Assembly (NCBI GenBank): GCA_015062805.1
Contig: SUTQ01000008.1
Location: 1 to 64,000, forward strand
Direction: 5' to 3'
From: Methanosphaera stadtmanae
Lineage (GTDB): Archaea > Methanobacteriota > Methanobacteria > Methanobacteriales > Methanobacteriaceae
DNA: 64,000 bases
The stretch's first letter is position 1. Each line of letters begins with the position of its first letter. Of this stretch, positions 52,153-57,263 are shown one piece after another. The notes beneath the pieces are model-generated. The model did not search any database. It worked only from the letters and a program-made list of their open reading frames with translations, and had not been told where the DNA came from. A program made the position numbers and the translations under genes.

Positions 52153-52548
52153 ATGTTTGAAAGAATATTAGTGCCAACAGATGGTTCTGATTTAGCAAAA
52201 AAAGCTGGATTTGAAGCAGTTAATGTGGCTAAAAAGTTGAATGGAAAAGTAATTGTAACACATATTATAGACCAGACTTTAACTAAACCTTATGAAGTTT
52301 TAGAAAATCAAGGACGTGAATATATTAAAGTAATCACAGATTATGCCTTGGAAAATGAAGTTGAATGTGAAAGCATGATAATATTCGGAAGTCCGAAGTA
52401 TGATATTGTTAAATTAACTAGAAAAAGTGAAGCAGATTCTGTAATGTTAGGAACCCATGGAAAAACTGGTTTAAAAAGTACATTACTAGGAAGTTTCGCA
52501 CAAAATGTTATAAGTACAATAGATTTACCGATTATTCTAATCAAATAA
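52153..52548 (+). CDS. Universal stress protein UspA family
   Basis: 131-residue nucleotide-binding protein. FERILVPTDGSDLAKKAGFE opens the fold and VMLGTHGKTGLKSTLLGSFA is the ATP-binding G-x2-G-x9-G(S/T) motif, ending VISTIDLPIILIK. I use the ATG at 52153 since GGTGA at 52143-52147 is the ribosome-binding site and overlaps the atwA stop. Co-transcription with atwA suggests a link to MCR activation or stress control, which is inference. Its end overlaps cbiZ by 12 bp. Confidence 0.92.
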   Translation: MFERILVPTDGSDLAKKAGFEAVNVAKKLNGKVIVTHIIDQTLTKPYEVLENQGREYIKVITDYALENEVECESMIIFGSPKYDIVKLTRKSEADSVMLGTHGKTGLKSTLLGSFAQNVISTIDLPIILIK

Positions 52549-53595
52549 ATGTCGATTAACAGAAGTTATTAACAAATCAAGTATATCTTCTATATTTTCT
52601 ATTTTTTTATTTTCTATAGATACTCCCAAATAAGATGTTAACAAAATGTTAACAGGAATTAATATATCATTTATGTCCAACAAACCCAACTGAACCTCAT
52701 CAATTAAATTTATTACGCTACTAACAAAGGCAACGTTTTGGCTGTTTTTATTAAATTTATAAAAATTATATAGATAATCCTCTTTATCAGAAACCACTTG
52801 AATATAAAAATCATCAAAGCCAATATTAAAACGAGACAATCGACTCAATACTGTTTTTTGAAAATCCTCGGACATGAAAGTTTGCAAATATAATGCTTCT
52901 TTTGTTGCTTCACGAACACTTTTTGCTATCAATTCACCCAATTTAGAATGTTTTCCAGCATTTTCTAAATGATTATCACTATCCTTGTTAGAAATTATAC
53001 ATATTCCATCAGTGCCCGTACCCGTAGCAATATTGGATGAATATTGACTTTCAATTTTTAAATCTTGAAGAACAGAACTTTTAGCTTCAGTAGCTGTAAT
53101 AGAAGCAGTGACTAAAGAACCATCCTGCAAATTTGCATCAATAATCGTGATAATGTTAATTGTTCCAAAATGATTGAAATAATTATTATTATATTCGTAA
53201 AAAGAAGCATTATCACCTGCTTTAACTGCATTTTTATCTGCACCTGCAGTAACAATTGAAGTAACTTTTAATTCTTCATATTTTTTAATGGATATAGCTA
53301 AATTATCCATACAGGCTGAAGTTAAGAGTCCAGTAGTTTTTTCAGGATTTAAACCCAAATATTTAAATTTATTCTTTTGGAAATCGTTAAAATCCCCATC
53401 AGACACATCATCATAATCTGTACCATCTACAGTTAAATTTACAACATTTTCCATATTATGACAAATTCCTCCATTTAGCCATGAGGATATTAACAAATTA
53501 TTATCTTTTTTTAAATTTATAACAATAGAATCTTCTCTTTTTATTAAATTAAAAAATAAGTCGTTAATTATTGTCGCAGAAAAGTCTTTAATCAT
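52537..53595 (-). CDS. cbiZ: Adenosylcobinamide amidohydrolase CbiZ
   Basis: Archaeal enzyme that cleaves the side chain of salvaged adenosylcobinamide to cobyric acid, 352 residues. Family motifs: LISSWLNGGICHNMENVVNL, GLLTSACMDNLAI, IVTAGADKNAVKAGD, ATEAKSSVLQDL, ATGTGTDGICIIS and GKHSKLGELIAKSV, all within the first 230 residues. The last 120 residues are an extra helical part without a motif I know. Methanogens using methanol or methyl-CoM pathways need corrinoids, so salvage is expected. A tandem pair of GTTAAC sites lies in the coding sequence at 52636-52655. Confidence 0.9.
   Translation of the reverse strand: MIKDFSATIINDLFFNLIKREDSIVINLKKDNNLLISSWLNGGICHNMENVVNLTVDGTDYDDVSDGDFNDFQKNKFKYLGLNPEKTTGLLTSACMDNLAISIKKYEELKVTSIVTAGADKNAVKAGDNASFYEYNNNYFNHFGTINIITIIDANLQDGSLVTASITATEAKSSVLQDLKIESQYSSNIATGTGTDGICIISNKDSDNHLENAGKHSKLGELIAKSVREATKEALYLQTFMSEDFQKTVLSRLSRFNIGFDDFYIQVVSDKEDYLYNFYKFNKNSQNVAFVSSVINLIDEVQLGLLDINDILIPVNILLTSYLGVSIENKKIENIEDILDLLITSVNRHLFD
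52636..52655. repeat. Satellite GTTAAC pair inside cbiZ
   Basis: ATGTTAACAAAATGTTAACA, with two GTTAAC cores 11 bp apart (52637 and 52648). The same 20 bases occur at the start of the array at 55723. Single GTTAAC cores also lie at 54139 and 54244 in nadM. Confidence 0.6.
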
Positions 53596-54502: not shown

Positions 54503-54520
54503 TAAAATGAGATGTTAAAA

Positions 54521-55690
54521 ATGGGCTTTATTAGAGATAGTATCCATGGAGATTTGCATTTAACAGATTTCGAATTAAAAATTTTGGATACTGTTGAAAT
54601 GCAAAGACTTAGACGTATAAAACAATTGGGTTTTACAAATTTAGTATATCCTGGTGCAAATCATACAAGATTTGAACATTCTATAGGAACCCTCTTTTTA
54701 GCAAATAAAGTTGGAAATACCTTGGAATTGGACAAAGAAGTAGTGGAATTACTTAGAATTTGTGGTCTTTTACATGATATAGGTCATTCACCGTTTTCAC
54801 ACGTATCTGAAAGAGCATTAAAACATAAACATGAATACGTTACTAAAGAAATTATTTCAGATTCCAGCATTACAGACATAGTTGAAGAACAATTCGATGT
54901 AAAATTAATTGAAAGTATTATTGATGGAAAAACAAAATATGGGAAAATAATATCTGGAGATTTAGATGTTGATCGTATGGATTATTTAGCTAGAGATTCA
55001 TATTACACAGGAGTTGCATATGGAGTAATTGATACTGAAAGATTAATATATGGTTTAACTTATGACAATGATGATTTAGTATTGTCACCCAAAGGTGTTC
55101 AAGCAGCAGAATCAACTTTGTTAGCAAGATATTTCATGTATCCAACTGTTTACCAACACCATACTACCAGAATAGTAAACAGTATGTTCAGAGTATCATT
55201 ATCCAGACTTTTAGAAGATAACGTTATAGAAGAAGAACAACTTAAATACTTGGACGACGGAGACTTAATAAATATAACACGTAATACTCCCGGACTCCCC
55301 GAAAAAACCATGAAAAACTTAGATACAAGACATTTATACAAGAAAACAGATACAATTAACCTTGCACAATTCGAAGAACCTTCATTAATTGTTGAAATGG
55401 ATAAAAAATATTTGACCGAAGCTGAAGAATCTATCGCAGCTAAATTGGATTTAGAACCAGAAGAAGTAATAATTGATATGCCTGAAGAATTATCTTTCAA
55501 AAAAATGAATATTAAAGTTGAAACTGATGAAGGATTGAAACCATTAACACAAGTATCAACGATTATTGATTCTTTGAAACAAGCACAATATAATTATGCT
55601 GACCTTGCATTATTCATGTCACCCGAAAATAAAAAGAGAGCCCTAGAAAAAAATATAAGATTAACAGACTATTTGACAATACCATGTTAA
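54521..55690 (+). CDS. HD-domain phosphohydrolase, dGTPase-like
   Basis: 389-residue metal-dependent phosphohydrolase. MGFIRDSIHGDLHLTDFELK is the usual start of this archaeal/eukaryotic SAMHD1-like family; RRIKQLGFTNLVYPGANHTRFEHSIG supplies the first His, LLHDIGHSPFSHVSE is the HD pair, and SGDLDVDRMDYLARDSYYTG the last Asp. Members hydrolyse dNTPs. ATG at 54521 is chosen over 54512 because it matches homologous starts and has GAGATG upstream. Probably co-transcribed with nadM. The phased array starts 34 bp after its stop. Confidence 0.9.
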   Translation: MGFIRDSIHGDLHLTDFELKILDTVEMQRLRRIKQLGFTNLVYPGANHTRFEHSIGTLFLANKVGNTLELDKEVVELLRICGLLHDIGHSPFSHVSERALKHKHEYVTKEIISDSSITDIVEEQFDVKLIESIIDGKTKYGKIISGDLDVDRMDYLARDSYYTGVAYGVIDTERLIYGLTYDNDDLVLSPKGVQAAESTLLARYFMYPTVYQHHTTRIVNSMFRVSLSRLLEDNVIEEEQLKYLDDGDLINITRNTPGLPEKTMKNLDTRHLYKKTDTINLAQFEEPSLIVEMDKKYLTEAEESIAAKLDLEPEEVIIDMPEELSFKKMNIKVETDEGLKPLTQVSTIIDSLKQAQYNYADLALFMSPENKKRALEKNIRLTDYLTIPC

Positions 55691-55723: not shown

Positions 55724-56329
55724 GTTAACAAAATGTTAACAATTTGTTTAACTCTTAAAAATAGTTAACAATCTTTTTTTTGAAACTTTTTTTTTGAAAA
55801 CATAATGTTAACAAAACAAATAATTAGTTAACAGAGATCTTGAAAATTTTTTTAATTTAGATAATACCCGAGATTGCTGTTAACATTTGCAAACTTTTTT
55901 TAAACAATAAAATTTGAATTTATTATCTTGTTAACAAAATACAAAAAAATGAAAACTGCTAAAACATAACCAAATTATCATTTTAAAACAGTTTAGTTTA
56001 TAATAATATCATTAAGAATATTGATGTTAACAAAAGTTAACAATAAAAACCATATAGTTAATTAAATATTTTTTAATGTTAACAATTAAAATATTATGTT
56101 AACAAAAAATTTAAAAATCAAAACATATTGAAAAATATTAAAACATTTGTTAACAATATTTATATAGTAGGCAGTATAAAAATATGTATAGGAAAAAATG
56201 TTAACAAAAAGTTAACTCTAAAAACATGATAAAAAATCAGAATTCTAAAAAATACGGAAGATGAAAGATTCTCAGATATTATGTTTTCAGTCTTTTATTA
56301 ATTGTTTTCATTGTTAACAAAAAGTTAAC
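55724..56329. repeat. Helically phased GTTAAC iteron array
   Basis: Sixteen exact GTTAAC cores, nearly all within GTTAACA(A/T), start at 55724, 55735, 55764, 55807, 55827, 55879, 55930, 56026, 56036, 56078, 56098, 56149, 56200, 56211, 56313 and 56324. Spacings are near multiples of about 10.35 bp. Near matches at 55746, 56057 and 56344 fall on the same phase. There is no gene in this 680-bp gap. The pattern fits binding of many regulator dimers on one DNA face. Confidence 0.85.
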
Positions 56330-56369: not shown

Positions 56370-57263
56370 ATGACTTCTGGACAAGCTACTGCAAGAATAA
56401 AAAATATTGAAGAATGGCATAAATTCAAAGAAAACGCCGAACGAAATGGAATAAAAATTGGTGAAGCTTTAGAACAAATTTTAGTTGCATACAATAATGA
56501 TACCTTAGTTGACAAGAATGAATTAGAAAATCTTCAAAAAGAGTATGACCTTTTATTAAAAAAAGTAGAATCTTCAGAAAAAACAGTAGTCGATATACAA
56601 GAAAAAAACAATAATTTACAAAAAAGAATAGACGAATTAAATAATTCAAATAGTCTTTTAAATAAAGAAAATAATTTTCTAAAGGATAATAATACAAACT
56701 TAGAAAATAAATTAAAAGAGTATGAAAATAATATTAAAAATATCACTGAAGAGAATAATAATTTAAAAATTGAAAATTCAGATAACACTAATATTTCCGA
56801 TCAACTTGAAAATACTGTTAAGAAATTACAAGAAGTTCAAGAAGAAAACAAAAAACTAGTTAAAACAAACAAAGAACTAGAAAATTCCAATCACCAATTA
56901 ATTGAAGAAAACATTAAATTAAAAGGATTATCAGATGTTCCTGAAAAAGAGAAAAAATTACTACAACAACAATATGACAATCTTGAAGAATTATATGATA
57001 ATCTAAAAAGTGATAATTCAGTATTAAACGACTCTTTAAAAACATTAACTGATGAGTTAAAACAACAACAAAAAGACACAAGAACTGCTAGAAGTGATTA
57101 CAAACATATTGTCGAGAACCTTAACAAGTTACATGAAGAGTTCAATGAAATTCAAAATGAAAATAAACAATATAATGTAATTTTTGCAGAAATCAAAAAA
57201 ATGTCAATAATGGAAAGAATTCTTGGAAAATATCCTGATGATATTAAAGAATTAAAACCATAG
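56370..57263 (+). CDS. Ribbon-helix-helix/coiled-coil protein, candidate array-binding protein
   Basis: 297 residues. Residues 3-45 (TSGQATARIKNIEEWHKFKE, then NAERNGIKIGEALEQILVAY) match a ribbon-helix-helix DNA-binding pattern: a short strand then two helices with G-I-K-I before the second. Residues about 50-265 are an unbroken, Asn/Lys/Glu-rich coiled coil. The last 25 residues (IKKMSIMERILGKYPDDIKE) form an amphipathic end. AAGGTG lies nine bases before the ATG, and the last GTTAAC sites lie 40-55 bp upstream, so autoregulation is likely. The layout recalls DNA-segregation adaptors, but no ParA-type ATPase is nearby. Fold call is mine, from sequence. Confidence 0.65.
   Translation: MTSGQATARIKNIEEWHKFKENAERNGIKIGEALEQILVAYNNDTLVDKNELENLQKEYDLLLKKVESSEKTVVDIQEKNNNLQKRIDELNNSNSLLNKENNFLKDNNTNLENKLKEYENNIKNITEENNNLKIENSDNTNISDQLENTVKKLQEVQEENKKLVKTNKELENSNHQLIEENIKLKGLSDVPEKEKKLLQQQYDNLEELYDNLKSDNSVLNDSLKTLTDELKQQQKDTRTARSDYKHIVENLNKLHEEFNEIQNENKQYNVIFAEIKKMSIMERILGKYPDDIKELKP

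Follow-up and report, generated by a model that had tools for sequence, protein, structure and literature searches.

A helically phased GTTAAC array beside the gene for a predicted ribbon-helix-helix coiled-coil protein in Methanosphaera

The GTTAAC array

The window analysed here is a stretch of 64,000 nucleotides from a contig of Methanosphaera, a genus of methanogenic archaea of the gut. Between a gene for an HD-domain protein (54512-55690) and a gene referred to here as the 56370 gene, it carries 16 copies of GTTAAC within 606 bp (Table 1), at exactly the positions and with all 15 spacings listed in an earlier note on this DNA. Across the genome GTTAAC occurs 505 times in 2,116,421 bp, that is once per 4.2 kb, and the remainder of the window holds 20 copies against the 19.2 +/- 4.3 expected from dinucleotide shuffling. 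The high density remarked on in that note is thus borne out. The sites are concentrated in one locus and stand at chance level elsewhere in the window, so that a role in organising the nucleoid, in the sense of elements dispersed over the chromosome, is not supported.

The sites are also helically phased, as had been proposed. With the period left free between 9.5 and 12 bp, the best Rayleigh R was 0.827 at 10.36 bp and none of 5000 random placements reached this value; a second randomisation (9-12.5 bp) likewise gave no placement as good among 1000. All site offsets fall within about 0.2 of a whole number of turns. The 11-bp doublet GTTAAC-N5-GTTAAC occurs only four times genome-wide, and the array accounts for three of these. 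The fourth, at 52637, is kept in one relative (L005), together with a third site nearby, and is absent from the others. Given its location in a coding gene and its conservation in L005 only, its role is doubtful and it was set aside as a part of the system.

The description of the sites as oriented direct repeats is correct in part. Among 116 sites pooled from seven species, GTTAACAA accounts for 75 and TTGTTAAC for 26, so that one orientation predominates, but there is also a clear two-sided component (GTTAACA in 100, TGTTAAC in 88), close to TGTTAACA. The pooled consensus, TGTTAACAA, has its A-rich side mostly downstream, so that the sites are near-palindromes with a preferred orientation. 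A search of Rfam with the array gave no match.

Table 1. Positions of the array, the 56370 gene and associated features in the window
Feature	Position	Strand	Remarks
Sole GTTAAC-N5-GTTAAC doublet outside the array	52637..52653	+	Inside gene 52537-53595, ~3 kb upstream of the array
GTTAAC array, 16 sites, phased at 10.36 bp	55724..56329	+	Fills the intergenic region and the promoter of the 56370 gene
11-bp doublet GTTAACAAAATGTTAAC	55724..55740	+	
10-bp doublet GTTAACAAAAGTTAAC	56026..56041	+	
TATA-box-like element TTTATATA	56159..56166	+	Array sites on both sides; inferred promoter of the 56370 gene
11-bp doublet shortly after the TATA-like element	56200..56216	+	Equivalent 10-11 bp doublet in all six aligned species
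Leader element TACRGAT...CACRGATA	56253..56278	+	In a ~100-bp GTTAAC-free gap between the last two doublets
11-bp doublet near the start codon	56313..56329	+	Equivalent paired sites, 11-20 bp apart, in all six aligned species
Gene for a putative cognate DNA-binding coiled-coil protein, 297 aa	56370..57263	+	
Codons 1-45, predicted ribbon-helix-helix (RHH) DNA-binding domain	56370..56504	+	
Codons 46-224, long coiled coil	56505..57041	+	Evolves fastest; 55-77% identity within group I
Codons 225-297, conserved C-terminal module ending MSIMERILGKYPDDIKELKP	57042..57260	+	Common to paralogs

Conservation of the array, promoter and leader

The gene is found at the same place in six further Methanosphaera genomes (68-85% identity), which with the present one form group I, and in each of these relatives the array has been retained just upstream, with 15-19 GTTAAC sites. 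The spacings differ widely between the species, and yet the best period lies at 10.36-10.46 bp in all seven arrays. Random placements did as well in 0, 0, 3, 4, 8, 21 and 229 of 1000 trials for the individual arrays, which are related and hence not fully independent. Over a set of 10 orthologous arrays with differing spacings, each taken singly, the best period was always within 10.36-10.58 bp, with at most 31 of 1000 random placements as good in nine of them.

A TATA-like element stands at the equivalent place in the other group I species and the pattern of sites around it recurs in relatives, often with one site upstream, a doublet downstream and paired sites near the start codon. The leader element is present as a single copy in the genome and in all seven group I arrays; it has no match in Rfam. 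A stretch similar to TACRGAT-N-CACRGATA was also seen in M. stadtmanae (L101).

The neighbours of the gene in group I are those for an HD hydrolase, a nucleotidyltransferase and IMPDH; other groups of the family have other housekeeping genes. No NTPase gene, including one for an actin-like protein of the ParM type, was recognised among the neighbours adjoining family genes. In six genomes (G001, G002, G003, G007, G009 and G011) the IMPDH gene comes immediately after that for the HD protein, with no family gene and 0-1 GTTAAC between them. This joint absence of gene and array from the empty site indicates that the two form one cassette.

The 56370 protein

Scans of the family against Pfam, NCBIfam and PADLOC returned nothing but coiled-coil noise. 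Alignment of the protein with 24 relatives revealed a layout in three parts. The head, of ~45 residues, has two helices and a segment whose alternating pattern resembles a strand; the coiled coil is variable; and the C-terminus forms a module with the pattern MS..[DE]R...[GNK]..P...[KR].L. Within group I the C-terminal 73 residues are 90-100% identical and the head 80-93%. The C-terminal tail is of amphipathic type by calculation. A similar module (LLDRLLNRAPPDIKKL) was noticed in another genus (L056) on a different N-terminal domain, and the C-terminal module may therefore be portable.

The head is best read as a ribbon-helix-helix domain, an assignment made by sequence profile, matches to Pfam being below thresholds. 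When head profile A7 (the first head profile, A3, extended by two divergent homologs) was searched against the PDB, the top two matches were both to RHH domains, that of NikR (E 6.7e-4) and that of ParG, a protein of plasmid partition (E 0.022). Comparison by hhalign with CopG/NikR/Arc gave P 3.2e-5 across the whole head, the three reference sequences having been confirmed by Pfam as RHH/Arc. Profile A3 itself had found no RHH match in the PDB and was weak in hhalign, and a profile of the whole protein matched only coiled coils there. The AlphaFold model of the full protein is of low confidence, and that of the lone monomeric head has two helices and no strand. In RHH proteins the strand takes shape only on dimerisation, so this model neither confirms nor excludes the assignment. 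The sole match in a fold search with the head model was the MukBEF-MatP-DNA complex, at a non-significant E of 4.2.

The wider family

A sister clade, I' (tree support 100/99), which includes a genome (G015) that we take to be M. stadtmanae, has the gene at a different locus, close to a DNA ligase gene. The cores of its arrays are GTACAC, GTATAC and GTAAAC (GTRTAC-like), many of them in 11-bp doublets, and are phased at 10.42-10.58 bp. Between group I and clade I' the RHH head is 38-40% identical and the C-terminal 73 residues 70-79%. Head and array motif thus changed together, and no other observation speaks as strongly for binding of the array by the protein. We consider it very probable that the 56370 protein binds this array.

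By profile search, almost every Methanosphaera genome has a full-length family member and such members are rare outside the genus; a closed chromosome has some two to three family loci. No full-length member was found in G002 or G011, which implies that the family is not essential to the genus. The tree sets groups II and III apart from a half whose members mostly have arrays (groups I, I', IV and others). Within the arrayed half a single 9-mer is repeated 11-28 times in the 600 bp upstream of the gene, where shuffled sequence reached at most 5-8 copies, and this 9-mer differs from group to group; for the paralogs beyond groups I and I' the count is 10-28 copies of other motifs. In every arrayed group the array lies at the gene's own promoter and leader. 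The exceptions in that half are the divergent L085 and L114, the latter with only 332 bp upstream on its contig. Groups II and III are mostly without a detectable array (L034 clearly departs from this, and L098 and L024 are borderline), suggesting that the C-terminal module can work without one. Coiled-coil proteins of similar size from other genera (L057-L066) were excluded from the family on account of their other N- and C-termini and the lack of a clear array, and viral contigs and phage records yielded no relatives. One member with a ATGTTACC array (L112:1-5727, G012:C1) lies beside ABC-transporter, usp and FIST-like genes, which are those found upstream of group I in the window, and is followed at the contig end by a second RHH-like gene.

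One arrayed member of the family is plasmid-borne. Its carrier, pNP174 from Methanosphaera sp. ISO3-F5, is circular, 174 kb long and has genes for MCM and primase. Upstream of the family gene are ~27 near-tandem copies of TATCTTACCTG at 11-bp spacings. A ParA-family model found nothing on the plasmid, and the regions of it that were read, outside 100,001-103,869, contain no gene annotated for partition in a table that describes itself as incomplete. The plasmid bears the BREX genes brxL and BREX-4 pglZ at 153131-162853 (L122) and, elsewhere, several HEPN/nucleotidyltransferase pairs.

Position relative to the origin and to chromosomal partition genes

In three closed relatives the array locus is 288-470 kb from cdc6-1, equivalent to 17-19% of the genome, and for this reason a reading as an Orc1/Cdc6 replication origin was dropped. 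The ParA-type genes of the genome are on contigs other than that of the array, and segA does not lie directly upstream of the 56370 gene. One of them (257 aa; L131:5603-6717), ~18 kb from cdc6-1, is followed by a 112-aa gene whose product begins MSDNALGRGLDALI and is SegB-like in appearance. This pair is perhaps the chromosomal SegAB of the genome. No SMC protein scored above the curated cut-off of TIGR02169 in G000, G008 or G015, where weaker coiled-coil matches were seen, some of them on ORFs of ~905-930 aa.

Comparison with known systems

Dam and Gerdes are said, going by the title of their 1994 paper, to have found ten direct repeats flanking the par promoter of plasmid R1. In ParR/parC systems the direct repeats measure about one helical turn (11 bp in R1, 10 bp in pB171) and flank the promoter of the system's own operon, and the DNA wraps round an RHH adaptor (PMC9426499). 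The cassette shares with this type II (ParMRC) system an RHH protein, predicted here by sequence profile, and phased repeats around its own promoter. It differs in that there is no gene for a ParM-type NTPase in the operon, in the long coiled coil that the protein carries along with its conserved C-terminal module, in its presence on chromosomes as well as a plasmid, and in the greater length of the array, which has 15-28 sites, most of them spaced by several turns. The operator of KfrA of plasmid RA3 consists of five 9-bp repeats over its own promoter, and binding to it is needed for plasmid stability (PMC7783346). A small N-terminal DNA-binding head, a long alpha-helical coiled-coil tail and a repetitive operator over the gene's own promoter are common to KfrA and, with head and operator as predicted, to the cassette; however, the head is predicted to be RHH here and is helix-turn-helix in KfrA, a protein of bacterial plasmids, and no match to the KfrA family in Pfam or NCBIfam and no sequence relation to it was found. 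The cassette would work like ParR/parC and KfrA and is a member of neither, having no ParM and no KfrA-type helix-turn-helix head.

Among archaeal systems, SegB shares an operon with SegA, which is of ParA type, and its binding sites, of ~13 bp, are few and dispersed (PMC12284271). The resemblance is in the archaeal host and in site-specific binding upstream of the system's own genes, which is predicted for the present cassette; the differences are that the latter has no segA directly upstream and that a ParA and SegB-like pair is found elsewhere in the genome. TubY, of the type III partition systems of Bacillus plasmids, combines a DNA-binding head, a coiled coil and a short conserved amphipathic C-terminal tail (PMC7762940). 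This order of parts is the same in the 56370 protein, where the amphipathic character of the conserved tail is by calculation only, but the head of TubY is a MerR-like helix-turn-helix and its partners TubZ and TubR were not found beside the 56370 gene. No description of the family was met with in the papers searched, mostly those outside subscription journals, and in relation to them the cassette looks like an undescribed DNA-anchoring or partition device.

Proposed mechanism and alternatives

The earlier note had taken the array for a centromere-like or wrapped nucleoprotein site. A wrapped, one-faced site beside the gene for its cognate DNA-binding protein is the best reading of it, supported by the co-inheritance of array and gene, the change of motif with the RHH head, the phasing kept despite turnover of the spacings, and the plasmid paralog with an array of its own. 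The centromere part fared less well: a plain chromosomal centromere is disfavoured by the want of a nearby NTPase gene, the separate ParA and SegB-like pair, the distance from cdc6-1 and the two genomes that have no full-length member. Since the chromosome has that pair, a second partition locus is not obviously needed. Partition or anchoring is nevertheless suggested by carriage on a plasmid, the behaviour as a cassette, the orthogonal motifs and the length of the array.

We propose that the 56370 protein would dimerise through its RHH head, each dimer reading one GTTAAC-centred near-palindrome. Dimers separated by one turn (10-11 bp), or by any whole number of turns, would lie on the same face of the DNA and bind cooperatively, so that the 600 bp could turn into a nucleoprotein filament, one-faced and either wrapped or stiffened, with the coiled-coil arms projecting outward. 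As array sites flank the TATA element, occupancy would be expected to repress the gene. The C-terminal module at the ends of the arms may connect the locus with its sister copies or with an anchor in the cell, and the cassette would then act as a partition or anchoring site of its carrier replicon, without an NTPase of its own. That the protein binds its array cooperatively, regulates itself and builds such a filament for anchoring or partition is, with both binding and segregation inferred, about an even chance. A broader generalisation can be put forward only tentatively, namely that these RHH-coiled-coil proteins with their own phased arrays, on chromosomes and on the 174-kb plasmid, form a family of NTPase-free archaeal centromere or anchoring cassettes in which joint change of head and motif keeps co-resident cassettes orthogonal and the C-terminal module makes the link to the cell. 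The segregation and positioning of euryarchaeal chromosomes and large plasmids are largely unknown, and a compact locus of two parts, one gene and one array, bears on this question. The natural specificity variants (GTTAAC, GTRTAC, TGTAAAACA, AATATTAC and CTTACC) would allow swaps, the plasmid copy offers a natural stability assay, and the cassette provides a clean example of a DNA-binding head co-evolving with an array of many sites.

Autoregulation alone is a serious rival, possible if on the unlikely side. The array would then be simply an operator by which the RHH protein sets its own expression, many sites giving a steep, cooperative response, and the coiled coil and C-terminus would serve something unrelated to DNA positioning, for example in the cytoskeleton or envelope. 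In its favour, each arrayed group has its array over the promoter and leader of the gene concerned, the core is at chance level elsewhere in the window, a partner NTPase is absent, the ParA and SegB-like operon is separate, and KfrA is itself described first of all as an autoregulator (PMC7783346). Against this, an array of 15-28 sites that occupies 600-800 bp and extends hundreds of bp beyond the TATA element on its upstream side seems excessive for repression, phase is kept across ten turns, and the existence of array-free paralogs means that control of expression needs no array; for KfrA, moreover, plasmid stability itself depends on binding to the operator (PMC7783346).

Three further explanations are improbable to differing degrees. 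RHH heads and coiled-coil arms might tether the array to other loci or those of paralogs, making it a nucleoid-bridging or looping site that organises the chromosome, as a macrodomain organiser does. The combination of RHH and coiled coil resembles MatP in design, the only fold match of the head model, a non-significant one, was to the MatP complex, and a closed chromosome has several family loci; the sites of the array are nevertheless gathered in one locus, as are three of the four 11-bp doublets, and since the motifs of paralogs differ their loci would not share heads, so that we regard bridging as improbable. Somewhat less probable still is that the cassette is a selfish or domesticated plasmid-stability element, a remnant of integrated plasmids that is now neutral on the chromosome. 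The plasmid-borne paralog, the loci that differ between clades and the absence of the cassette from the HD-IMPDH site in relatives would fit such a history, but the preservation in group I of phasing, site number and C-terminal identity looks like selection rather than decay. Finally, phased GTTAACAAAA tracts could bend the DNA or seat archaeal histones, the downstream gene being incidental. The A-rich 3' flank of the sites and their helical phasing are consistent with this, and we nonetheless hold it to be very improbable: the array is absent where the gene is absent, and the core, an exact GTTAAC, gives way to other cores in members with a diverged RHH head.
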